From a virus: a DNA stretch of 39,360 bases. Under the pieces are notes generated by a model. That model worked only from the letters and a program-made list of their open reading frames with translations. It did no database searches and was not told the origin of the DNA. Location of the stretch: IMG/VR virus record IMGVR_UViG_3300045454_000121, positions 1 through 39,360 of that record; one strand, 5' to 3'. Both the position numbers and the translations under genes were made by a program. Below are positions 4,024-38,724 of the stretch, piece after piece (within the stretch, counting starts at the first letter, position 1; the number at the start of each line of letters is the position of its first letter).

Positions 4024-6743
4024 CAGCTGGTTCCTTTCTTCACGGTGTCAGGGTCGGGGTTGCGAAACACCCAGCAGTCGACGGTCTTGCCGACGCGGGA
4101 ATTGACGGCCTTCACTTCGACGAAGCGGCGGGCCTTCGAGGTCTTGAGCAGGCGGCGCAGCTCCTGGTTGGTGCAGGGCATGCGCAGGCCATTGGCGGAA
4201 CAGCGGCTCTCGAACTGGACCAGGCTGATCGCGAAGACGTCCGACGTTCGGGCATGGTTGATCGGGTTCTCGGGCGCGAGATGCATCGCGTCCTGCGCGT
4301 TGAAATGGTCGAAGCGCTCCCAGAACAGCGTGACGTGCGGGTGATCCTGCTCGGTCACGCGGTGCCGCTCGACCAGCATGTCGAGGATCAGATTGTGCGC
4401 GTCGGCGACGTCGTGGTCGGCGAGGTTGGTGACGACGAGCCGCATCGCGTCGAGCATCGCCGCCAGCTGCGCGTGGTTCTTGGCGAAGCGGTAGTCGCCG
4501 CAGCCGGGATGCTTGAGCATCCGGGCCTCGTGGTGGGCGAAGGCCTCGGCATAGCGGGCAAGGATTGCCTCTTCCCGGCGCGCGACGTGGATCGGGAAGC
4601 CTGACAGATCCTTGATGTCGGCGGTCTTGAGTGCCTCGCCAGCGGCCTTGCCCTGCGGCGAAAAGCGGCCCTTGTCGAAGTGCAGGCCCATGATGCGCTC
4701 GGTCACCGCCGGCGAGCCTTCGACTGTCGCGTTCTGGGCGATGACGATCGCGCCACGAAAGGGCGGCTCGAATGTTTCCATGCCGCCATTGGCGATGGCG
4801 CGGGTGCGCACGGCGCGACCGTTATAGGCGGTCTTCAGCTCGTCCCATTCGAAGCGCTTCGCGTGCGGAGTATCCTGACCACGGTCGCCCTCGATCAGCA
4901 CGACGGGGAGGTTGCCGACCTGCCCCAGCGTGCGCGAGATGCCCGCATTCGTGCCCTTGGTCGGATCGAACCCTTCGTAGGATGCGCGGCCCAGCAGCTT
5001 CCACAGGAATTCCAGCAGCGTGGTTTTGCCGCTGCCCGGCGGGCCGGTCATTTCGAGGAAGCCGAGGCTTTCCTGTTTCGCGCGGATCTGTTCGGCGAAG
5101 AGTGCCAGCACCCAGAAGGACAGCACCACTAGCCCCTTGGGGCCGTAGGCGGTGATCAGCGGGCGGGTCCAATCGAGGTTGAGCTTCTCGGGATCATAGG
5201 CGAGGCGCAGCATCCGCTCCGACGTGCGCAGCTTCACCGATCGCTTGCCGAGGACGAAATAATCCTCGTCATTGGCCTCGTAGACGCGGCCCTTGTGAAC
5301 CGCGACGTCGCCGAAGATCCAGGCCTCGTGTTCCTTCGAATAGCCGGTGAACTGGATCGCCTCGACCACCTGAATATTCGCCCATTGGCGCTGCATCAGG
5401 CGGACGATCTGAAACTGATTGCCGGTCCATAGTGCGCCGGGAGCGACCGATGCGAGCCGCTTCATGAAGTCGCCGGATCCCGCGCATGCTGCGCCGGAGA
5501 AGGTCGCCTTCACGCTGGCCCGATCGGACGGGAAATCGACGCGGAGGAAGTACGCGCCCTCCTCAAGGTTCGGGTCGCGCTGGTAGTAGAGGGTGCGGAA
5601 GGTGCAGTTTGCGACCTCCTCGATCTCGACCGCGCGCTCGGCCGCGCGCTGCCATTGCTGGGTGAACGGGAGCGCCTTGAAATCCTCGAACTCGGGCTCG
5701 TCGCTTTCCAGCATCGCGGTCAGCTCGGCCTGGATGCGGTCGATCGAGAAGTTCGCCCAGAGCTGACGGCCGCCGAAGGTGATCGGGAAGTTCGCGAATT
5801 TCTCGCGCTCGTAGATCAGCAGCGCCTTGGCCGTGGCAGTCGGCGCGATCGTCACCTCGCCATTCCAGCGATAGGTGGCCAGATCGTCGGGCTTCAGCTT
5901 GTCGCGCTGGCCGAGGTCGTTCCAGTCGAGCTTTTCGCCCTCACCATCGGGGCGCACCTGGGCAGCACCCGAGCGCCAGCCTTCTGCCGTGGCGCGCTCG
6001 TGAAATTTGCGGGTGAAGTGGACGCCGGCGCGTCCGACGTCGAACGCCCAGATCAGGCGCGGCCCGGCGAGGTTGAGCTCGCCACAGACCCGGCGCAGAT
6101 CCGCAAGGAAGTGTTCGGGATAGACGTTGCAGGTCAGGGTCGAGACGGCGCGGACCTTGCCCTTCTGGACCAGGTCGATCGTGTCGAAGATGCCCTCGGC
6201 CAACCAGAGTTCATCTGCCCTGGCGATGTCCTCAAGCGTGACGCCGGGGTACATCCAGCAATGGCCGCGATAGCTGGAGCCGTAGGAGAAGGTCGCCTTC
6301 TTCTTCCCGAACCGGCCCGGCTGATCGATCAGGCGCTGCCAATGCCCGCCGCCGGGGATGGGGAAGCGCACCGCCGCCGAGACGATTCCCAGCTCGGGGT
6401 CACGATACCATTCCTGCGAATAGCAGCCGCGCAGGTCCATGAGGTTGAAGCCGCGCGCGGCCGAGAGATAGGCGTCTGCGGCGGCATGGGGATCCTGCGC
6501 CGTCTGCTTGTGGCGCTTTGACCAGTTGTCGAAGATGTCGGGGTAGAGTTCCTTGACGTGCTTCTCGACGCCGCAGCGGTTCACGCGGCCGCATTTTACG
6601 ACCCAGGGCGCATCGGCGCGGGCATAGGCTTCGCGCTTGCCGCAGGCGTCGCACTTGCCCTCCTGCAGCCAAGCGCCGTTGGCCTTGAACTTGTAATCGT
6701 TCTGCAGGCGCTTCAGCACTTCTGTGAGGAGATCGTCGCGCAT
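4023..6743 (-). CDS. Phage primase-helicase (zinc finger, Toprim-like, DUF927-type ATPase)
   Basis: A 906-residue replication protein. Residues 31-57 form a C-x2-C-x16-C-x5-C zinc finger like those of primases. A Toprim-like segment follows (about 170-270; LAEGIFDTID, then LIWAFDVG). The C-terminal half is an ATPase: Walker A GPPGSGKTTLLEF at about 566-578 and a Walker B-like VVLIEGD near 613, in the DUF927/superfamily III-like helicase style. It would unwind phage DNA and lay primers. It replaces the rolling-circle initiator gpA of classical P2; no HUH relaxase motif was found in the window. The last 35 residues (RRFVEVKAVNS...DCWVF) are echoed by a 57-aa frame at 9544-9717. It opens after a 95-base gap downstream of Ogr and leads the chain of small genes. 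Confidence 0.9.
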   Translation of the reverse strand: MRDDLLTEVLKRLQNDYKFKANGAWLQEGKCDACGKREAYARADAPWVVKCGRVNRCGVEKHVKELYPDIFDNWSKRHKQTAQDPHAAADAYLSAARGFNLMDLRGCYSQEWYRDPELGIVSAAVRFPIPGGGHWQRLIDQPGRFGKKKATFSYGSSYRGHCWMYPGVTLEDIARADELWLAEGIFDTIDLVQKGKVRAVSTLTCNVYPEHFLADLRRVCGELNLAGPRLIWAFDVGRAGVHFTRKFHERATAEGWRSGAAQVRPDGEGEKLDWNDLGQRDKLKPDDLATYRWNGEVTIAPTATAKALLIYEREKFANFPITFGGRQLWANFSIDRIQAELTAMLESDEPEFEDFKALPFTQQWQRAAERAVEIEEVANCTFRTLYYQRDPNLEEGAYFLRVDFPSDRASVKATFSGAACAGSGDFMKRLASVAPGALWTGNQFQIVRLMQRQWANIQVVEAIQFTGYSKEHEAWIFGDVAVHKGRVYEANDEDYFVLGKRSVKLRTSERMLRLAYDPEKLNLDWTRPLITAYGPKGLVVLSFWVLALFAEQIRAKQESLGFLEMTGPPGSGKTTLLEFLWKLLGRASYEGFDPTKGTNAGISRTLGQVGNLPVVLIEGDRGQDTPHAKRFEWDELKTAYNGRAVRTRAIANGGMETFEPPFRGAIVIAQNATVEGSPAVTERIMGLHFDKGRFSPQGKAAGEALKTADIKDLSGFPIHVARREEAILARYAEAFAHHEARMLKHPGCGDYRFAKNHAQLAAMLDAMRLVVTNLADHDVADAHNLILDMLVERHRVTEQDHPHVTLFWERFDHFNAQDAMHLAPENPINHARTSDVFAISLVQFESRCSANGLRMPCTNQELRRLLKTSKARRFVEVKAVNSRVGKTVDCWVFRNPDPDTVKKGTS

Positions 6744-6838: not shown

Positions 6839-7153
6839 TCAGCCGCTCATGGGAGCGACCTCGGTCGCCGCTGGCGGGTGCTCATCATTGGCAGGAGGGG
6901 GCGTGTCGTCATTGGCCGGCACTGAGGCCCACTTGCCCATTGGCAAGTGGATGTCGGGGTTCGGGCATGCGCTGGGCCGCACGGTGCGGATCACGCTGAG
7001 CTGGGCGACGAAGTAATGCCCGCACTCGATGTTGTCGCAGACGAGGCGCAGTTCGCGCACGATCGGCGTCACCTGGACGCTGTCGCGCACAATCGATCGA
7101 TCGCCGCAATGGGGGCAGTGGATCCCCGGAAGACGTGGTTTCTTGGCAGTCAT
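6839..7153 (-). CDS. ogr: Ogr/Delta-type zinc-finger activator of late transcription
   Basis: A 104-residue protein of the Ogr/Delta family. The zinc-finger core has CPHCG near residues 13-17, then SVQVTPIVRELRLVC, CDNIECGHYFVAQLSVIRTV, and a trailing S-A-C-P. In P2, Ogr binds dyads near -55 of late promoters and recruits RNA polymerase through its alpha subunit. The family fold fills residues 1-70; the tail is Pro/Asn-rich and low in complexity. The gene lies in the early operon, coupled by ATGA to the 164-aa gene upstream. In P2 it sits after gene D in the late region. A conserved dyad found upstream of all four late operons here (17416, 25000, 31734, 34843) is its likely target. The family is secure; its binding to those sites is inference. 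Confidence 0.9.
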   Translation of the reverse strand: MTAKKPRLPGIHCPHCGDRSIVRDSVQVTPIVRELRLVCDNIECGHYFVAQLSVIRTVRPSACPNPDIHLPMGKWASVPANDDTPPPANDEHPPAATEVAPMSG

Positions 7154-17415: not shown

Positions 17416-17434
17416 TGTTGAAAGACTTACTACA
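17416..17434 (-). promoter_or_regulatory. Ogr-type late promoter dyad for V
   Basis: On the minus strand it reads TGTAG, nine bases, CAACA; the outer arms are CTTGT/ACAAG. Centre at 17425, 56 bases from the A of the gpV ATG. Within 23 bases it differs from the J box by only two bases. P2 late promoters bound by Ogr carry a TGT-N12-ACA dyad near -55; the same halves are spaced by 13 here. Confidence 0.75.
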
Positions 17435-17588: not shown

Positions 17589-18473
17589 ATGCCTAGAGGC
17601 TATCGGTGCATCGTGATTGCGGCTCTCGGATGCCTAGTCCTAGCTTCCGCCCCCGCCCCAAATCACAGCGCTCAAGCCAATCAATCCAACGCCACCGAGG
17701 ACGTAAATCGCTCCCTCGCGACGATTGCGGATGCGCAAACCAAGCAAGCCGAAACTGGCGAATATCAGACCCCATGCCCCGACGGTGAGTACAACAACAA
17801 GTCCGATCTTTGCGCCCAGTGGTATGCCGCACGCGCCGCTAGAGACGCGGCAGATTGGGCGTACTGGGCCGTGTTCTGGACGGCGATATCCCTTGCCGTC
17901 AGTGCTGTCGGATTGCTCGCTTTGATCATCACGATCCGGCAAGGTAGGGAGGCTAACGAGATCGCCCGACAAACTGCTAGACTTCAACTTAGAGCGTATG
18001 TCGGAATTAAGATCAGCCTTGTGGATGTAGAAACCGAGAAGCGGTCTCGCGCCGTCGTTTCTCATGACATCGAATTTCAGATTGAGAATTTCGGCTCGAC
18101 CCCAGCGACGATCCACAGAATCGATTTTAATATGAGCAAAACGGCCAGAAAGCCCAGAGAACTTGACGTTTCTGCGCCGCAATTCGCGCCGCGTGAGATA
18201 GTCATTCGCCCCCGGGTGCTGGCTCCAGGAGACCACTTCGTTCATCGGATGCGCGTCGGTTTGCTCCGAGCCGATCTGACAGAAATCAGCGCACTCACGC
18301 GCGAGATATCGGTCGGCATGCGCCTTTGTTACGTCGATATTTACGGCGAGGCCCACGAAATCGTCATTCGCTACGCTAGCAGCGGCCGGTCTTACGATAG
18401 ACGCGAGTTCACGAGATGCTACGAGGAGGCATATTCCTACCCCGAAATGCCGGCAGAGTGGCTTGAGCCGTGA
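17589..18473 (+). CDS. Membrane-anchored cargo protein of unknown function (294 aa)
   Basis: A 294-residue protein on the strand opposite to the late genes. Residues 1-30 are a signal-peptide-like segment (CIVIAALGCLVLASAPAPNHSAQA). A DGEYNNKSDLCAQWYAARAARDAADWAYW region leads into one transmembrane span (about 94-115, AVFWTAISLAVSAVGLLALIITI). Residues 117-294 form a beta-rich domain beginning REANEIARQTARLQLRAYVGI. This layout (TM, then IRQGREANEIARQTARLQLRAYV) is widespread among unnamed proteobacterial proteins; exact function is unknown. It sits between the V promoter and the end of the fibre genes, so it is a moron-type insertion. The 220 bases before it carry the V dyad and no other gene that I can see. 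Confidence 0.8.
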   Translation: MPRGYRCIVIAALGCLVLASAPAPNHSAQANQSNATEDVNRSLATIADAQTKQAETGEYQTPCPDGEYNNKSDLCAQWYAARAARDAADWAYWAVFWTAISLAVSAVGLLALIITIRQGREANEIARQTARLQLRAYVGIKISLVDVETEKRSRAVVSHDIEFQIENFGSTPATIHRIDFNMSKTARKPRELDVSAPQFAPREIVIRPRVLAPGDHFVHRMRVGLLRADLTEISALTREISVGMRLCYVDIYGEAHEIVIRYASSGRSYDRREFTRCYEEAYSYPEMPAEWLEP

Positions 18474-18494
18474 ACTAAACATGACGGCGAACGC

Positions 18495-18508
18495 CATCAC
18501 GGGTGATG
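18495..18508. terminator. Short hairpin between convergent genes
   Basis: catcac-gg-gtgatg is a perfect inverted repeat, 22 bases after the stop of the 294-aa membrane protein and before the 3' end of the convergent 314-aa gene. No T-tract follows, so intrinsic termination is uncertain. The remainder of the 122-base gap shows no gene. Confidence 0.35.
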
Positions 18509-18595
18509 ACACTCGTAATCGCCTTGGTGCATTTGCTACATAATCCCGCTCATTTGAATGCGACGCGTGCTGGGACGTACGGGTCGCCGGGTAGG

Positions 18596-19540
18596 TCAGG
18601 GCATCCCGGCGACATCGTACGCGCCAGGATCGTTGAAATAGCGCCCCCCAGCGGCATGCGCCTTGGTCCACTCCGCCAGCTCGCGCTCGAGCATCTGCTG
18701 AGGTGACAGCGCCTTTGCCGGGTCGGCGTTGGTCAGCAGCGTCCCGAAGTGAAGCCGTTCGAACACGAAGCTCTGCGACTTGTTGTCGTGGATCGCATTG
18801 CCCGAGACGTTGCCGGCCGACACGAACAGCTGTCCCACCGCCTGCAGGGCCTGGGCGACGAAGCGGGCGGTGACGAAGTGCAGCGCCGGCTCGCCGACCG
18901 GCTGCACTCCCGGGGTGTCATAGCGGAACAGCCCCTCATCATTGCCGGTGTTGTTGTAGCCGGTGCTGCCTGCGGGCGACATGCCCATGATCTTGCGATA
19001 GGTCGACCCGGCAACGTTTAGGCCGCGATACATGAAGGGCTGGGCGGCATCGTCGCTGCCGGTGTCGACGCCGGCGCGCAGGGTGCGCGTCCAGAGCGCG
19101 GCAAAGAAGATGTCCTTTGTCGGGACCGCCGCATAGGTTTCGACCCGGCTGTTGGCATAGGCGACGATGTTGGCGGGCGCATTGATCTTGGCCCAGACGT
19201 TGGTGTTGGCGTTCACCCGGCTGACCGTGAACTGAAGGGCGCCGGCGGCGGTGCGATCGGTGCGCGATCGCGTAGCCTGCCCCCAGGCGGTGCCCTGGGT
19301 CAGCGTGGCGCGCAGCGCCGCCGCGTCATTCGCGGTCAGGCCGAGCAGGCGCGCCGCCGGGCGGAAGGCGTGATTGCGGAAGGCGTAGCCCGCGGTGGGG
19401 ACTGCGCCGGGGGCAAGATCGGACAGGCTGTGTCCGGGTTCGATCAGCAGCAGCGACCCGTCATGAATCGCGGGATCGTCATGGTAAGCGGGAAAGCTGG
19501 TGCCGAGCGGCGCGCCGCCGATGTCGATGCCAAGGGTCAC
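18596..19540 (-). CDS. Uncharacterised fibre-associated protein (314 aa)
   Basis: A 314-residue protein beginning MTLGIDIGGAPLGTSFPAYHDDPAIHDGSLLLIEPGHSL. It is rich in Ala, Thr and Asn, with segments such as NTNVWAKINAPANIVAYANSRVETYAAVP and a C-terminal LERELAEWTKAHAAGGRYFNDPGAYDVAGMP. I do not recognise a domain. It is coupled by a four-base overlap to the SGNH-type fibre protein and is the last gene of the J-H block. Location at the end of the fibre genes suggests a receptor-binding, tip or surface-modifying protein. There is no signal peptide or membrane segment. Confidence 0.8.
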   Translation of the reverse strand: MTLGIDIGGAPLGTSFPAYHDDPAIHDGSLLLIEPGHSLSDLAPGAVPTAGYAFRNHAFRPAARLLGLTANDAAALRATLTQGTAWGQATRSRTDRTAAGALQFTVSRVNANTNVWAKINAPANIVAYANSRVETYAAVPTKDIFFAALWTRTLRAGVDTGSDDAAQPFMYRGLNVAGSTYRKIMGMSPAGSTGYNNTGNDEGLFRYDTPGVQPVGEPALHFVTARFVAQALQAVGQLFVSAGNVSGNAIHDNKSQSFVFERLHFGTLLTNADPAKALSPQQMLERELAEWTKAHAAGGRYFNDPGAYDVAGMP

Positions 19541-30797: not shown

Positions 30798-31634
30798 TCA
30801 GCAGTCGGTGACGAACTGTGCGTTCGGGCTAGCGCCGGTGGCAGGCGCGCGGCTGAAGCGGGTATCGGGGCTCTGTTCGAGCCGCGCCTTGATGTCCGCG
30901 AACTCGCTCTCGATCGCGGCGACAGCATCGGACACCGGCTTCACTGCGGCGCTGATCTGCTCACCGACGGCTGCGCCCATTGCCGCGCTGAATGCCTGGG
31001 CGTCGAAATTGTCGTTGGCGGGGGGCTTGCGCTCTTGCTGCTTGGCCGGCTCCGGCTCGTTGCGGAACTTGGCGAAAAAGGCGGTGAGGCCGCCGGTGAT
31101 CGCGTCGGCAATACTGGTCGCGTCGGGGGGCTTGGCGTCGAACTCGATCGCGACGCCCTCGGTCCCGGTCGAGTAGATGGTGCGATGGACGGCGGCCGAG
31201 CGCGAGAAGGTCAGCTTCTCGGTCGCGATGCTGGCGGGGTTGTCGGTGAAGGCGAGGCCGACCAGGCCAACCTTGCCGGTGCCGGCATAGTCGGCGGTCA
31301 GCTCGACCGAGGGGAAAGGCTTCTGACCGCTCCTGGCCAGATCGACCAGCTGGTCGAGGGCGTCGACCTGGGCATAGAGCGCGCGGCGCTTTTCGCTTTT
31401 GCCGGCGATGACGATGTCATCGGTCTGCGCCTTCACCGCGCAGATGTCGCCGTAGCGGTTGAAGGGCGGGTTCGGGCTGAAGCCCGAAAGGTGCTCGATG
31501 TTGATGCCGGGAGTGTAGGTCGCGGCGTTGAAGGTCTCGACGGCCTGGTCGATCATCTCCGCCGTAACAGTGCGGCCGTCGCTGATCGTCTGACCCTCGA
31601 CGAACGCGCGGAAGAACTTGCTCTTGGTGCCCAT
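30798..31634 (-). CDS. O: Capsid scaffold and protease gpO
   Basis: A 278-residue scaffold with an N-terminal serine protease domain (MGTKSKFFRAFVEGQTISDGRTVTAEMIDQAVETFNAATYTPGINIEHLSGFSPNPPFNRYGDI; the H in IEHL and the S in VELTADYAGTG's region fit the family's protease part) and a C-terminal coiled-coil scaffold (AAVKPVSDAVAAIESEFADIKARLEQ). The ATG at 31634 matches the family's usual start and has an AGGGGA Shine-Dalgarno sequence. An in-frame ATG at 31688 would add 18 residues; it lies 55 bases from the centre of the O dyad. Which start is used is open. First gene of the O-N-M-L-X-lysis-R-S operon. Confidence 0.92.
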   Translation of the reverse strand: MGTKSKFFRAFVEGQTISDGRTVTAEMIDQAVETFNAATYTPGINIEHLSGFSPNPPFNRYGDICAVKAQTDDIVIAGKSEKRRALYAQVDALDQLVDLARSGQKPFPSVELTADYAGTGKVGLVGLAFTDNPASIATEKLTFSRSAAVHRTIYSTGTEGVAIEFDAKPPDATSIADAITGGLTAFFAKFRNEPEPAKQQERKPPANDNFDAQAFSAAMGAAVGEQISAAVKPVSDAVAAIESEFADIKARLEQSPDTRFSRAPATGASPNAQFVTDC

Positions 31635-31733
31635 GGCGGTGCGGTCCCCTGGTCGATGCGATGCTGGCGGCGATGGCCGCAGTGACATCGGCGAAAGGGG
31701 ACGAAGGGGCGGCGGTTCTCAAGACTGTCTCGC

Positions 31734-31752
31734 TGTAGACTAGGACTCTACA
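31734..31752 (-). promoter_or_regulatory. Ogr-type late promoter dyad for O
   Basis: On the minus strand TGTAG, nine bases, CTACA, a perfect 6-bp dyad tgtaga/tctaca. Centre 31743, 109 bases from the usual gpO start but 55 from an in-frame upstream ATG at 31688. It lies in the 153-base gap between the DUF6481 gene end and gpO. Confidence 0.72.
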
Positions 31753-31787: not shown

Positions 31788-32114
31788 TTACCGCGAGCGC
31801 CTTTTTCGCGGAGAATAGCGCACAGTACGCGCGAGCCTTTGGTCTTCCTCTGTCAACTCTGGAATTATTGCTTCGAGCTCTCGCCTCTCAATTGAGCGCG
31901 CCAGCCTATCCGCCTTCTCGCGCTCTCGCGCGTCGCGAACAGCCCGCCTTTTTTCAGACTCGGCAGCAGCACGCGCCTCGCGGGCGGCTTGACGGGCTGA
32001 GATCTCAGCTTCGCCCTTTGGAGCCTTCTCTCGGAGCAAGTTAAGAGCCGCTTGCTTTGCCTTGGCAGCTAGAGCTACGCGCTCTTGGAATGTTGGGGGC
32101 TTGAAAGCAGGCAT
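31788..32114 (-). CDS. DUF6481-like small charged protein (108 aa)
   Basis: A 108-residue, highly charged helical protein: MPAFKPPTFQERVALAAKAKQAALNLLREKAPKGEAEISARQAAREARAAAESEKRRAVRDAREREKADR. The start pattern F-K-P-P-T-F-Q-E-R-V-A-x-A-x-x-A-K and the Glu/Arg/Ala coiled-coil tail match the DUF6481 family, common in Alphaproteobacteria, with no known function. It is not part of the P2 core set and lies between O and P with the ATPase gene, under its own likely promoter (32145-32173). Cargo gene of the lysogen. Confidence 0.8.
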   Translation of the reverse strand: MPAFKPPTFQERVALAAKAKQAALNLLREKAPKGEAEISARQAAREARAAAESEKRRAVRDAREREKADRLARSIERRELEAIIPELTEEDQRLARTVRYSPRKRRSR

Positions 32115-32229: not shown

Positions 32230-34680
32230 CTAAGCCCCCGAACCCTCCACAACGCGTCTTACTGAATCAAACGACTTTGACTGATCGTTGACTGCAGACT
32301 GAAAATCAAAATAGTTTACATCGAAATTTGACTCGTACCAGATGGCCAGAAGGTAATTCAAGAAAGCTAATGATTTCTTGTACCGGTCCCATATCTCGAA
32401 GCTGGATGCGTACTTGAAAATGGTATCTCTTGCTTCCTTGTCGAACACAGGTGTGTCTATGGACATGGCATCCATGAACGAGAATGACCCAATCCAGTGA
32501 CGAATATGGTAAATTCCGACCGAGGTTGCGCGATAATTGAATGTCTCATTAAATTCATCATCTGACACCGCGAGCTCTCTAAAATGTGCGTGTGGCGTTT
32601 CGATGAGTCGATGTTCTGCGAGTCTTCTCAGTGAGGCCCGAATTTGTGTCTCAGCGAACCCTAGTCGGATCATTTCGGCTAGAACGACCGCTCCTGGAGC
32701 AAAGCCGTCACTATTCTGCAGTCCAGCTGGCGAATTTAGATATCCCACAATCAATGAGCCTAAAAAGTGCTCACGCTGGTCCGCGAGTTTCACGTCAAAA
32801 ATGTTACAGGCCACCAACGAAGACGTAGCATTGTAATACGCATACTCTCCGAGCAGGGCGTGCTTAGTGAACTCGTGGAATGGAACAACGTATTGTTTTT
32901 TCTCTTCCTCAATTCTTACAATTCGTTCAGATTCTACATTCGGCGATCCGCAGAAACTTGTAATAAGTTCTAGTATCAGGCGGGTGTTTCCGCCGGTAAT
33001 GTTGGCAAGAAAAGTTCTAATATCGGCGTTGCGCCGAATAGAGCGCAGCATTGCGCGTAGGAATAGCTCGATATTTCCTAAATTTAGGCTGACGCCTTCC
33101 AGAGCTGCGGGGGCAACCCTTCCCGACGCGACGCGAAGTGCAAATACAATGCGCTTTCGGATCACCTCGTGCGCTGGCGGAGGTGATATGCTCAGAACCT
33201 CGTTTTTGTAACCGGACAATGCCCCGCTAAGCTTGGATGCGTAAAAAGTGGAAGGTCGAAGCGCGACAAATATTAGCATAGCTCGACCAGAAGCAAGTTC
33301 CTGCGCTACGAGAAATGCCTCTTGTTGTGTCTCAAATGTTCGTTGATCTGCATTGTCTAGAACAATCATTACTTGGCGACTCATCGCCTTCACGATATAA
33401 TTTAGAGAGCGATGTACATGTGTCGGTCTATCATTTACCATCGAAGCCAAAAACGAAATTCGTGCTTTTAGGTACGCGGTTCGATCAATATTTTTTAGCT
33501 GTCCTTCAACGCTGTCATCAAACTCAGCGATCTCCGCAGCGTACAGCTTTGATGCAAACTCATTGCTATCAATGTTGATGTCGTACTCTTCTCTTAATAC
33601 AAGTGGCACACGACGGATAAAATAAGATTTTACGTCGATCGATAGTGCTGCCTCTTCTCCGAGATTTACGTGAATATAGCAGGTGCTCAGTTTTTCACTG
33701 TCGTCGAGTTTTTCGAATAAGTTCTCGAAAAAAGATGTTTTTCCGACGCCGACGTCACCGATTACGACGATTGGTCTTCCAGTCGTTGAGAGACTGTCTT
33801 TTGTCGTAAGTTTAACTACGCCATCTTCAACTTTTGTCGTCAAGTTGGCAGGGGCGATTCCGTTATCAGATACACGGCGATACCGCGAGGCAACAACGTC
33901 GCTCCCGAGCAGTGAGTTGTTATTATCTCCATAAACGGAAACGTAACACTCACGATAGAAGTCACTTTTCACATCTGGATTGTACTCCACATCCTCGAGA
34001 AGGACAGTTGCGAGGGTACGGAGGTTCTCTTGAAATGGAGTTCTGTATCGATACGCTTTGGCATCGCTTAGGGTGGTCGAAGCTTTAACTGGAATACGTG
34101 GGTTCTGCAGGTCAGCGAGAGCACGCACGGCGATGTTTTCGTAAACCCCTTCGGGAGACAGGAAGCGCCAGAGCGAGGGAAAGTCGGACAAATACGCATT
34201 GAAGCCATCGAAGACAAAGCATTCACCATCAAGCGGTGAGCCACTGTGCCCTACGCTCTGAAATATGACCATTTGCGGCCCGTTACAAACGACCGCGAGG
34301 CGCGCGCCGTGGAGAGCGCAATATCCAATCACTTGCGTGCATGCAGCTTTCAAATTTGGGCAGGAGTCGACCAAAGACCGAAGTTTGCGGGCAGATCGCG
34401 GTCTCGCTGATGGGAGAAAGTTAAACTTTTTCGCTTCCTTCTTGGCCTCAACCGCTGCGCGAATAGGGTTGCCGAGGAGATAATCCGCGCGCCCCCCTCC
34501 CTCGTCAAATATCTCCACGGCGATCAGAGGCTTTTCCCAGCCCAGGCACTCGCTCAGAAGTCGGTCTATAAATTGAAAGCGATTCTGGGCTTCGCTCCAG
34601 TGCGCACTGTCAGGGGGGAAGGTCTCAATGATCCCCTTAAGCGCAGCGCGACCCTGATGCATTTCGATGGAAGCCTGCAT
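32230..34680 (-). CDS. Nuclease-ATPase fusion (HsdR-like PD-(D/E)XK plus P-loop NTPase), candidate defence gene
   Basis: An 816-residue protein. Residues about 30-140 resemble the HsdR_N nuclease domain: NRFQFIDRLL, then RADYLLG with D66, VEAKK with E78 and K80, and QVIGYCALHGARLAVVCNGPQMVIF with Q117. Residues about 300-490 are a P-loop ATPase: Walker A GDVGVGKT (308-315, K314) and Walker B VMIVLDNAD (D442), followed by LIFVALRPS. Residues 500-816 are helical, without a recognised domain. It is visibly richer in A+T than the flanking structural genes and differs in codon use, so it came from elsewhere. It sits alone between O and P. A nuclease plus STAND/AAA-type switch is the layout of abortive-infection defence (Avs-like), but no TPR sensor repeat is obvious. 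Function is inference. Confidence 0.8.
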   Translation of the reverse strand: MQASIEMHQGRAALKGIIETFPPDSAHWSEAQNRFQFIDRLLSECLGWEKPLIAVEIFDEGGGRADYLLGNPIRAAVEAKKEAKKFNFLPSARPRSARKLRSLVDSCPNLKAACTQVIGYCALHGARLAVVCNGPQMVIFQSVGHSGSPLDGECFVFDGFNAYLSDFPSLWRFLSPEGVYENIAVRALADLQNPRIPVKASTTLSDAKAYRYRTPFQENLRTLATVLLEDVEYNPDVKSDFYRECYVSVYGDNNNSLLGSDVVASRYRRVSDNGIAPANLTTKVEDGVVKLTTKDSLSTTGRPIVVIGDVGVGKTSFFENLFEKLDDSEKLSTCYIHVNLGEEAALSIDVKSYFIRRVPLVLREEYDINIDSNEFASKLYAAEIAEFDDSVEGQLKNIDRTAYLKARISFLASMVNDRPTHVHRSLNYIVKAMSRQVMIVLDNADQRTFETQQEAFLVAQELASGRAMLIFVALRPSTFYASKLSGALSGYKNEVLSISPPPAHEVIRKRIVFALRVASGRVAPAALEGVSLNLGNIELFLRAMLRSIRRNADIRTFLANITGGNTRLILELITSFCGSPNVESERIVRIEEEKKQYVVPFHEFTKHALLGEYAYYNATSSLVACNIFDVKLADQREHFLGSLIVGYLNSPAGLQNSDGFAPGAVVLAEMIRLGFAETQIRASLRRLAEHRLIETPHAHFRELAVSDDEFNETFNYRATSVGIYHIRHWIGSFSFMDAMSIDTPVFDKEARDTIFKYASSFEIWDRYKKSLAFLNYLLAIWYESNFDVNYFDFQSAVNDQSKSFDSVRRVVEGSGA

Positions 34681-34842: not shown

Positions 34843-34861
34843 GGTAGAATGGGCTACTACA
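34843..34861 (+). promoter_or_regulatory. Ogr-type late promoter dyad for P
   Basis: On the plus strand GGTAG, nine bases, CTACA. Centre 34852, 57 bases from the gpP ATG. The weakest of the four (the leading T is G), but the spacing and orientation agree. It lies in the 228-base gap between the ATPase start and P; I see no gene in that gap. Confidence 0.62.
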
Positions 34862-34908: not shown

Positions 34909-37023
34909 ATGCCATCCTTCGATCATTCTCTTTCTGCCGCGACCCTGCCGATCCCGGTCGATGCGCGCCGCCAGGCGCGTAGCCTGTATTGGCGCGGGTG
35001 GGGCGTCACCCAGATCGCGGACGAGCTGGCGCTCAAGCGGCCGACAGTCCAGGCGTGGAAGGATCGCGAGAAGTGGGATGACGCGCCGTCGATCGCCAAG
35101 GTCGAGGACGCGCTGGAGTGCCGGCTCAACCTGCTGATCGCGAAAGAGAGCAAGACCGGGGCCGATTTCAAGGAGATCGATCTGCTGATGCGCGCGGTGG
35201 TTTCGGCCGCGCGGGTGCGCCGGTACGAAGCGCCGGGCGGGCACGAGGGCGACCTGAACGAGAAGGTCGCCAACCGCAACGCCGGCGAGCGGAAGAAGGT
35301 GGTGAGGAACCACTTCACCGCGGAGCAGGTCGAGCAGCTCGAGGCGATCTTCGAAGACGAGCTGTTCGGATATCAGGAGGATTGGTGGGCGGCGAAGGAT
35401 CAGCGCACGCGCATGATCCTGAAGTCGCGCCAGATCGGCGCGACTTGGTATTTCGCGCGCGAGGCGCTGCTCGACGCGCTGCGCGGGGGCGGTAACCAGA
35501 TCTTCCTTTCAGCGTCGAAGAACCAGGCACATATCTTCCGGGGCTACATCATCCAGTTCGCCGCGCGGGTCGGGGTGAAGCTGCAGGGCGATCCGATCGT
35601 CGTCACCGCCGACACGATGCCCGAGGGCGAGCCGGCGGCCGAGCTGATTTTCCTGGGCACCAATGCGCGCACTGCGCAGGGCTATCACGGCAATTTCTAC
35701 TTCGACGAGTTCTTCTGGACCTATGGTTTTGAGGAGCTGAACAAGGTCGCGAGCGCGATGGCGATGCACAAGCGTTGGCGTCGCACCTATTTCTCGACGC
35801 CCAGCTCGGTCGCGCATCAGGCGCACCCCTATTGGACCGGCGAGCGGCGCAATCGCCGAGTCAAGAAGGAGGATCGCGTCACGATCGACGTCAGCCATGC
35901 CCGGTTGAAGGCGGGCGTGCTGTGCGAGGACAAGATCTGGCGGCAGATCGTGACGATCGAGGACGCGGCAGCGCGCGGATGCGACCTGTTCGACATCGAC
36001 GAGCTGCGGGTTGAATATGCGCCCGACGAGTTCGCCAACCTGTTGCTGTGCCAGTTCGTCGATGACAGCCTGTCCGCGTTCAAGTTCAACGAGCTGCAGC
36101 GCGCGACCGTCGATGCGATGGTCGATTGGCGCGACGTCGATCTGCTCGCGCCGCGCCCTGTTGGCCAGCGTGCAGTCTGGGCCGGCTACGACCCGCAGGA
36201 GAGCGAGGACGGCGACAATGCAGCGCTCGTGATCGCGCTGCCCCCCGAGGGCCCGGGCGGCAAGTTCCGCCTGATCGAGCGGCATCAGCTGCGCGGGCTC
36301 GATTTCCAGGCGCAGGCGGAATTCATCATCGCGCGGCTCAAGCGCTACAACTGCACCTATCTCGGCATCGATGCCAATGGATGCGGGGTTGGCGTCTATC
36401 AGTGCCTGCAGCGCGAGGGCGTGCGCGGCCTGACCAAGATCGAATATTCGCTCGAGGCGAAGGCCACGATGGTCATGAAGGCGCAGCACAGCTTTGCCCG
36501 TGGCCGGATCGAGTTCGACGCCGGTTGGATCGACGTCCAGTCGAGCTTCCTGTCGATCAAGAAGGCGCTGACCCGTGGCGGCGCGGCGATCACGTTCAAG
36601 GCGAGCCGCAGCGAAGACGCGGGCCATGCCGATCTGGCGTGGGCCGTCATGCACATCCTGATCAACGAACCCCTGGACGGCAAGGCGCGGCCGAAGACGC
36701 GCATGGAGATTATCGATGGCGAAGAGGGATCGGGCGCGGCGGATGTCGACGAAGGAATCGGCGGCGGCTTCGCATGGAGCCATCGTGCAGGCGACGAATT
36801 CGGGCGAGATGACCGCCTTCAGCTTTGGCGACCCGGAGCCGGTGTTGAACCGGCGCGAGCTGATCGACATGCTGGAATGCCCGCACAATGGCCGATGGTT
36901 CGAGCCGCCCATTCCCGTCGATGGGCTGGCCCGCGCGTTCCGCGTGTCGCCGCACCACAGCTCGGCCATCTACCTCAAGCGCAACCTGCTCGCCGCGTCG
37001 TTCGTCCCGTCGCCGCAGCTTAG
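34909..37023 (+). CDS. P: Terminase large subunit gpP (ATPase), with C-terminal overlap into Q
   Basis: A 704-residue packaging ATPase. The N-terminal HTH (VDARRQARSLYWRGWGVTQIADELALKRPTVQAWKDREKW) is typical. The ATPase core has LKSRQIGATWYFAREAL (Walker A-like, about 165-180) and FYFDEFFWTYGF (Walker B region, about 263-275). The nuclease part includes WAGYDPQESEDGDNAALVIALP and YLGIDANGCGVGVYQCL. Homology seems to end near residue 603 (KTRMEIIDG). The frame then runs another 100 residues over gene Q, with Arg/Ala/Pro-rich, shadow-like sequence and a stop at 37021. P2 gpP is about 590 residues. The extension may be real translation or a lost stop. A GAGG motif precedes the ATG. Confidence 0.92.
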   Translation: MPSFDHSLSAATLPIPVDARRQARSLYWRGWGVTQIADELALKRPTVQAWKDREKWDDAPSIAKVEDALECRLNLLIAKESKTGADFKEIDLLMRAVVSAARVRRYEAPGGHEGDLNEKVANRNAGERKKVVRNHFTAEQVEQLEAIFEDELFGYQEDWWAAKDQRTRMILKSRQIGATWYFAREALLDALRGGGNQIFLSASKNQAHIFRGYIIQFAARVGVKLQGDPIVVTADTMPEGEPAAELIFLGTNARTAQGYHGNFYFDEFFWTYGFEELNKVASAMAMHKRWRRTYFSTPSSVAHQAHPYWTGERRNRRVKKEDRVTIDVSHARLKAGVLCEDKIWRQIVTIEDAAARGCDLFDIDELRVEYAPDEFANLLLCQFVDDSLSAFKFNELQRATVDAMVDWRDVDLLAPRPVGQRAVWAGYDPQESEDGDNAALVIALPPEGPGGKFRLIERHQLRGLDFQAQAEFIIARLKRYNCTYLGIDANGCGVGVYQCLQREGVRGLTKIEYSLEAKATMVMKAQHSFARGRIEFDAGWIDVQSSFLSIKKALTRGGAAITFKASRSEDAGHADLAWAVMHILINEPLDGKARPKTRMEIIDGEEGSGAADVDEGIGGGFAWSHRAGDEFGRDDRLQLWRPGAGVEPARADRHAGMPAQWPMVRAAHSRRWAGPRVPRVAAPQLGHLPQAQPARRVVRPVAAA

Positions 37024-37929: not shown

Positions 37930-38724
37930 ATGTCTAGTACCAGCGTTCGACCCGTGGCACCCGCTGCGGGCTATATCGGCGGCAAGCGCAATCTGTCCGC
38001 CCGGATCGTGCGGATCATCGATGCGATCGACCATGACGCCTATGCCGAGCCGTTCGTCGGGATGGGCGGCATTTTCCTGCGCCGCCGGCGGCGCGCGCGG
38101 GCCGAGATCATCAACGATGTGTCGGGCGACGTCGCGACCTTCTTTCGCGTGCTGCAGGAGCATTTCCCCTATTTCATCGACATGCTGCGGTTCCGCGTGG
38201 CGAGCCGGGCCGAGTTCGAGCGGCTGCGCGCATTGCCGGGGGAGCGGTTGACCGATCTGCAGCGGGCGGCCCGGTTCCTGTACCTCCAGCGGCTCGCGTT
38301 CGGCGGGCGGGTCAATGGGCGTACCTTTGGCGTCGATGTCACTCAGGGCGCGCGGTTCAACATCGCCAAGCTGGAGCCGATGCTGGCCGACATCCATGAG
38401 CGGTTGGCGGGCGTGGTGATCGAGCAGCTGGCGTACGGGGAGTTCATCCGCCGCTATGATCGCCCAGGCACGCTGTTCTACCTCGATCCGCCCTATTGGG
38501 GGTGCGAGACCGATTATGGCCCCGACGTGTTTGCCCGGGCCGACTTTGAGGCGCTGGCGGCGCAGCTCGCGGGAGTCCGGGGGCGGTTCCTGATGTCGCT
38601 CAACGATACGACGGGGGTGCGCGAGGTGTTCGGCGCGTTCAAGATGGAGGAGGTCGAGACGACCTATACCGTCGGGGTTAAGGGCGCGAACAAGGCGGCG
38701 GAGCTGCTGATCAGCAACTTCTAA
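37930..38724 (+). CDS. Dam-type (D12) DNA adenine methyltransferase
   Basis: A 264-residue N6-adenine methyltransferase of the D12 (alpha) class. Cofactor segments GYIGGKRNL (14-22) and EPFVGMGGIFL (40-50) come first, then IINDVSGDVATFF (60-72), and the catalytic DPPYWG at 186-191. Cofactor motif before catalytic motif distinguishes it from the beta-class enzyme at 1354-2049. Usual targets are GATC-like; the specificity here is unknown. It lies after Q, likely late or cargo-expressed, and may protect packaged DNA from host restriction. No restriction partner seen. Confidence 0.93.
   Translation: MSSTSVRPVAPAAGYIGGKRNLSARIVRIIDAIDHDAYAEPFVGMGGIFLRRRRRARAEIINDVSGDVATFFRVLQEHFPYFIDMLRFRVASRAEFERLRALPGERLTDLQRAARFLYLQRLAFGGRVNGRTFGVDVTQGARFNIAKLEPMLADIHERLAGVVIEQLAYGEFIRRYDRPGTLFYLDPPYWGCETDYGPDVFARADFEALAAQLAGVRGRFLMSLNDTTGVREVFGAFKMEEVETTYTVGVKGANKAAELLISNF

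Follow-up and report, generated by a model that had tools for sequence, protein, structure and literature searches.

The window analysed here comprises a complete virus record (39,360 bases), which is of the P2 type according to the genes N, O, P and Q recognized by Pfam, and which has a tyrosine integrase at its left end. The genes O and P start at 31688 (leftward) and 34909 (rightward), respectively, and the 3.2 kb between these starts hold two ORFs, namely a DUF6481 ORF and the 816-aa ORF that is the subject of this study (Table 1). The original prediction had placed this ORF between O and P, in the gap between two divergent late promoters, and had described it as richer in AT than its surroundings. 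All of this agrees with the present data, as Phage_GPO is found on the left and Terminase_6N/6C on the right, both flanks contain a late-promoter-type dyad, and the GC content is 47% for the ORF, with 46-50% along it, versus about 65-66% on both sides of it. The Ogr/Delta activator of the phage is presumed to be the ligand of these dyads. A sigma-70 promoter scan of the insert gave 7 matches versus 2.5 in shuffles, and no match was located just upstream of the cargo start.

Table 1. Features of the O-P region and of the late activator gene in the window
Feature	Position	Strand	Remarks
Ogr/Delta zinc-finger late activator	6839..7153	-	Pfam PF04606, 8.9e-16
Gene O, capsid scaffold/protease, left flank	30798..31688	-	Pfam PF05929 (Phage_GPO), 1.3e-51
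Late-activator dyad TGTAGACTAGGACTCTACA, O edge of insert	31734..31752	.	perfect copy
DUF6481 ORF, second insert gene	31788..32114	-	Pfam 1.1e-5
Cargo gene, nuclease-ATPase fusion, PHROG 14719 family	32230..34680	-	816 aa, reading frame intact
Residues 521-816, predicted ATPase lid, winged helix and helical tail	32233..33120	-	AlphaFold2, Foldseek; boundaries approximate
Residues 295-520, ORC/STAND-type P-loop ATPase core	33121..33798	-	Walker A 308-315, Walker B D442
Residues 1-200, HsdR/RecB-type PD-(D/E)XK nuclease domain (highly likely)	34081..34680	-	AlphaFold2 and Foldseek; Pfam in relatives
Putative catalytic codons D66 to E78-x-K80	34441..34485	-	invariant in 78 members
Late-activator dyad GGTAGAATGGGCTACTACA, P edge of insert	34843..34861	.	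1 mismatch
Gene P, terminase large subunit, right flank	34909..37023	+	Pfam PF03237, PF17289, PF06056 (Terminase_6N/6C, gpP-like)

Elsewhere in the window, a second GC dip (about 56%) coincides with a 294-aa ORF without known family (17589-18473, + strand), which adjoins a late-promoter-type dyad at 17416-17434 and is possibly a second cargo gene; the overlapping ORF 17640-18671 on the - strand may be the real gene instead. Two further genes of the phage specify a D12-class adenine methyltransferase, directly after gene Q (37930-38724, +), and a DNA methylase of the N6/N4 type close to the integrase (1354-2337, -).

The proposed HsdR-like nuclease domain withstood structure prediction. The N-terminal 200 residues, folded alone with AlphaFold2, gave a model with a pLDDT of 91.5, whose best PDB matches in Foldseek were HsdR (3h1t), Cas4, the type IIG enzyme BpuSI and EcoR124I HsdR, with E-values of 0.013-0.4 that are weak even at best. 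By sequence profile, the PDB yielded P-loop matches of a generic kind and, apart from these, only HsdR 3h1t with a weak E-value of 0.031. Among the 78 members of the family alignment (full-length sequences with 19-79% identity to the 816-aa query), HSDR_N_2 was detected by Pfam in 14 and HSDR_N in 13, the window protein by itself being under the thresholds for these families. In the same alignment, E30, D66, Y67, E78, A79, K80, Q116, Y120 and N133 are invariant, and E, D, ExK and QxxxY constitute the motif set of HsdR/RecB nucleases. D66, E78 and K80 had thus been assigned correctly, whereas the nuclease glutamine is not Q117, as had been suggested, but Q116 (Q116-x3-Y120). As the fold and sequence matches are weak but concordant, and as the motifs are invariant, a PD-(D/E)XK fold of the N-domain is highly likely.

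AlphaFold2, Foldseek and the 78-member alignment also agree with the predicted fusion of this domain to an ATPase in one chain. The Walker A motif at 308-315 (GDVGVGKT) and the Walker B residue D442 are present as described, with G308, G311, G313, K314, D442, N443, D445 and R510 invariant in the alignment, and such an invariance of nuclease and Walker residues over sequences of 19-79% identity shows that these are no chance matches. A single-sequence Pfam search gave weak P-loop matches to AAA_22 and AAA_16. Neither Pfam nor NCBIfam matched the protein to any metabolic family, and a metabolic enzyme was therefore rejected. The whole-chain AlphaFold2 model, computed from the family alignment, has a mean pLDDT of 88.3 and a pTM of 0.76, and its Foldseek matches in the PDB were ORC4/Cdc6-type AAA+ proteins (probability 1.00, best E 2e-6) and plant NRC3 NLRs. 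The probabilities of these matches range from 0.94 to 1.00, but their TM-scores are low (about 0.15-0.38), so that they indicate a likely topology and not close homology. The alignments span roughly 430-590 columns and thus reach past the ATPase core, which makes the C-terminal part compatible with a lid and a winged helix. The earlier description of this part as a 300-residue helical C-terminus of no known family is therefore only partly right, since the ORC/Cdc6 and NLR folds point to these two elements, and it is possible that residues 521-816 serve as a sensor. The Walker B motif is D-N and not D-E in all members, and hydrolysis is uncertain for this reason; judged from the sequence, this exchange suggests slow hydrolysis and a role as a switch.

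Could the protein be an enzyme of a type IV-like restriction system, i.e. an ATP-dependent nuclease whose winged helix reads modified or foreign DNA directly and whose ATPase works as an ORC-like clamp or motor and not as a signal switch? The DNA-binding AAA+ proteins of the ORC/Cdc6 group are indeed the best fold matches, the nearest matches of the N-domain are restriction nucleases of types I and IIG, and a conserved methyltransferase partner is lacking, just as type IV enzymes would have it. We nevertheless consider this unlikely, as Pfam recognized no modified-base reader domain in the window protein, no helicase motor domain was found, and the similarity of the ATPase to switch-type proteins is no smaller than that to motors.

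The window protein is a full-length member of PHROG 14719, which it matches over residues 26-779 (E 1.2e-73). PADLOC and NCBIfam searches with the 816-aa protein gave nothing convincing and thus no known system. The original statement that no named system has exactly this layout holds in this respect, but the protein is not a one-off, as it belongs to a widespread unnamed family. No close relatives were found in the phage collection, nor in IMG/VR with the single sequence as query, and an alignment-based scan then yielded 79 loci in genome contigs and 12 in viral contigs. The members come from about ten phyla and reside on plasmids, in prophages and mostly outside phages. In the tree, the ten phyla are mostly separate and alpha-, beta- and gammaproteobacteria are mixed, and we therefore claim mixing only among proteobacterial classes and no transfer between phyla. 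The presence is patchy, with a strong match in only 4 of 299 Sphingomonadaceae genomes. The nearest homolog (L089, 79% identity) is from Sphingomonas and shares the ORF with the window but not the flanks, and with a dN of 0.16 at saturated dS the purifying selection is strong, which indicates selection on the encoded protein and movement of the gene as one unit.

Some relatives pass Pfam cut-offs that the window protein does not reach, or carry additional domains. The plasmid relative L007 passes the cut-offs for HSDR_N_2 and for KAP_NTPase, the window protein lying below the latter, and L008 passes those for HSDR_N and S1. In the L008 relative (L008:4233-6917), the C-terminal S1 domain is an extra nucleic-acid-binding domain, and the plasmid matches H17 and H20 are annotated as cold shock domain-containing proteins; such additions hint at a sensing of nucleic acids. 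On a Vibrio casei plasmid (L004:7875-9551), the nuclease domain has been lost to an IS3 insertion, and the ATPase and C-terminus are still open over 559 codons. A relative of the Klebsiella plasmid member is present in 7 of 5,426 E. coli genomes; megablast against E. coli gave matches with L006 as query and nothing with the Klebsiella plasmid member L007. The two E. coli copies that were inspected are prophage-borne, and each stands alone, with replication genes and hokD as its neighbours on either side. At the DNA level, an E. coli prophage relative is 87.5% identical to the copy on the Klebsiella plasmid.

The genomic surroundings of the family are those of a mobile gene. Its AT content exceeds that of the flanks in 84 of 86 loci, the mean difference being 11.8 points, and the commonest neighbour families are recombinases or integrases (11, 9 and 5 loci; named from their sequences without a family search). 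There is no conserved partner gene across the loci, and a two-gene system with DUF6481 or another partner was therefore rejected. When the nearest ORFs of 150-1200 aa within 5 kb were collected, 120 neighbour proteins matched 110 PADLOC models (E up to 1e-15), among them Shedu SduA, Hachiman HamA, PARIS AriA and Argonaute-associated SIR2, as well as type IV restriction enzymes and type II methyltransferases, whereas a control of 120 proteins, taken from Sphingomonadaceae genomes at 20 arbitrary stretches of the chromosome, gave 9 models, GlgB and RtcR included. This contrast is a qualitative one, as models and not proteins were counted and the control stems from a single bacterial family. A Paracoccus homolog adjoins Tmn, and four distant relatives (L173, L175, L176, L179) are directly beside gene Q in P2-like phages. 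They are thus in the Q-A (cos-proximal) locus, a published P2 defence hotspot (PMC9122126). The occurrence on plasmids and beside integrases or transposases could also be that of a gene which chiefly serves element maintenance or exclusion, directed against plasmids or sister phages, and which is no general antiphage system. We regard this as quite improbable, because an antitoxin or other partner is not conserved and because the neighbours are rich in antiphage families.

Among 146 distinct P2-like viral contigs, the O-P gap is small in 140 (median 103 bp) and holds 0.8-2.9 kb of cargo in 6, to which the window has to be added, and it is empty in all 22 measurable Sphingomonadaceae prophages. 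The gap is therefore an occasional cargo site, and the window insert is a variable cargo between conserved P2 genes that most relatives lack. Filled gaps are also present in the two phages closest by terminase (96% and 93%). It has to be considered that the gene might belong to the normal set of the phage and serve DNA replication, recombination or packaging, being sited beside the terminase for functional reasons, as it adjoins the terminase gene and encodes an ATPase of ORC/RFC-like fold. With its absence from 140 of the 146 related phages, its foreign base composition and a family that lives mostly outside phages, this is highly improbable; a structural or DNA-handling gene of the phage was rejected, given the absence from most relatives and the presence on plasmids.

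The cargo differs in each of the six filled contigs. It is a protein kinase matching the mad6/PD-T4-6 models in L070 (7623-8702), a DUF6161/AbiZ-like protein in L071 (2047-3369), a Bro-N protein in L010 (7771-8469), and unknowns in L009, L043 and L064. With the kinase, the AbiZ-like and the Bro-N protein, the site seems to collect defence-like genes. The consulted passages of the publications on the Q-A hotspot and on the fun locus, another P2 defence hotspot (PMC9519451), contain no mention of the O-P gap that we could find, which does not by itself prove novelty.

How can late transcription tolerate such an insertion? The promoters of P and O in Smp131, a P2-like phage, were assigned to one common TGT-N12-ACA site that is read on both strands (nt 4381-4398; PMC3931495). 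The dyad scored here, a 19-bp TGTAG-N9-CTACA or close variant, is comparable to that site. By the strict pattern it was found once in 41 of the 140 empty gaps and never twice, as compared to 0.014 per shuffled gap, and the remaining 99 have a diverged dyad or none. In contrast, all six filled relatives (L009, L010, L043, L064, L070, L071) have a copy at each cargo edge, so that each of the divergent late promoters appears to keep its own operator. Further copies at 17416 and 25000 of the window probably mark other late operons. As the paired dyads within one phage differ in their central 9 bases, an origin by recent target-site duplication is not supported; the pairs would be explained by a cassette that carries an operator along, or by operators recombining with each other.

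Taken together, we propose, with a probability of roughly 60%, that the ORF is a mobile gene carried as cargo by a P2-like prophage, and that its product acts alone as an antiphage nuclease switched by a nucleotide. The domain make-up, the invariant catalytic and Walker residues, the purifying selection, the stand-alone organization, mobility and the cargo position are established, and the antiphage role is strongly suggested by the family-wide context: as the relatives travel between plasmids, prophages and defence islands in a wide range of bacteria, the gene is most likely directed against viruses. Nuclease and P-loop ATPase are common defence parts, and 13 of 31 further validated systems have PD-(D/E)XK and 7 have P-loop domains (PMC13092281), but according to the same study a mere resemblance to defence proteins is no guarantee, as many such nuclease proteins give no protection when tested (1 of 24). 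Mechanistically, the protein might rest in the lysogen with a nucleotide bound in the ORC/STAND-type ATPase, until the lid and winged-helix C-terminus senses an invader-derived signal, which could be a protein, a DNA end or a replication structure. Nucleotide exchange and a putative oligomerisation would then bring the N-terminal HsdR-like domains together, and the joined nuclease domains may cut DNA of the invader or, in the sense of an abortive infection, of the cell.

In a wider perspective, the family may be an unnamed stand-alone antiphage family of about ten phyla, with an HsdR-type nuclease, an ORC/STAND-like switch and a winged-helix sensor, and the O-P gap may be a further defence-cargo site in some P2-like phages, where cassettes lie between duplicated late-activator operators and both late promoters still work; we see the chances of this broader view as evenly balanced. 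If true, a compact single-gene nuclease-switch system that the searched PADLOC and NCBIfam models missed would be added to the antiphage catalogue, and the E. coli prophage relatives would be ready-made for testing. The doubled activator site would let a phage host cargo in its most conserved late region with unbroken late transcription, and the O-P gap would be a simple place to seek further defence genes.

How does the protein compare with known systems? The combination of a nuclease with a STAND-like ATPase in a single chain is known as a general design, and Avs/AVAST proteins likewise combine effector nuclease, STAND-like ATPase and a C-terminal part and presumably share the trigger-and-cut principle. 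The window protein is only half their size (816 aa), has a nuclease of HsdR type, and continues after the ATPase with about 300 residues including a predicted winged helix, whereas Avs proteins have a long repeat sensor. No Avs model was among the PADLOC matches at E up to 10, and membership was rejected, as there is neither an Avs profile match nor a long repeat region at the C-terminus that would sense terminase or portal. With type I HsdR, the protein shares the N-terminal nuclease with E, D, ExK and QxxxY and the best fold match 3h1t, but it has an ATPase of ORC/STAND type, no helicase motor and no HsdM/HsdS; type I restriction was dismissed, since Pfam found no helicase family and partners are not conserved. 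RADAR RdrA and the ORC/Cdc6 AAA+ proteins resemble it in the AAA+ core with lid and winged helix, but neither has an N-terminal nuclease, and RADAR was discarded because the family lacks a conserved partner like the RdrB deaminase and RdrA ranked only 49th in the whole-chain Foldseek list. PHROG 14719, which matches nearly the whole length, is itself unnamed and of unknown function. The insertion, finally, resembles the P2 hotspots (Q-A and fun), which hold small, fast-changing cargo between conserved P2 genes (PMC9122126, PMC9519451); the copy in the window differs from these in that it occupies the O-P gap and is flanked by duplicated late-promoter operators.
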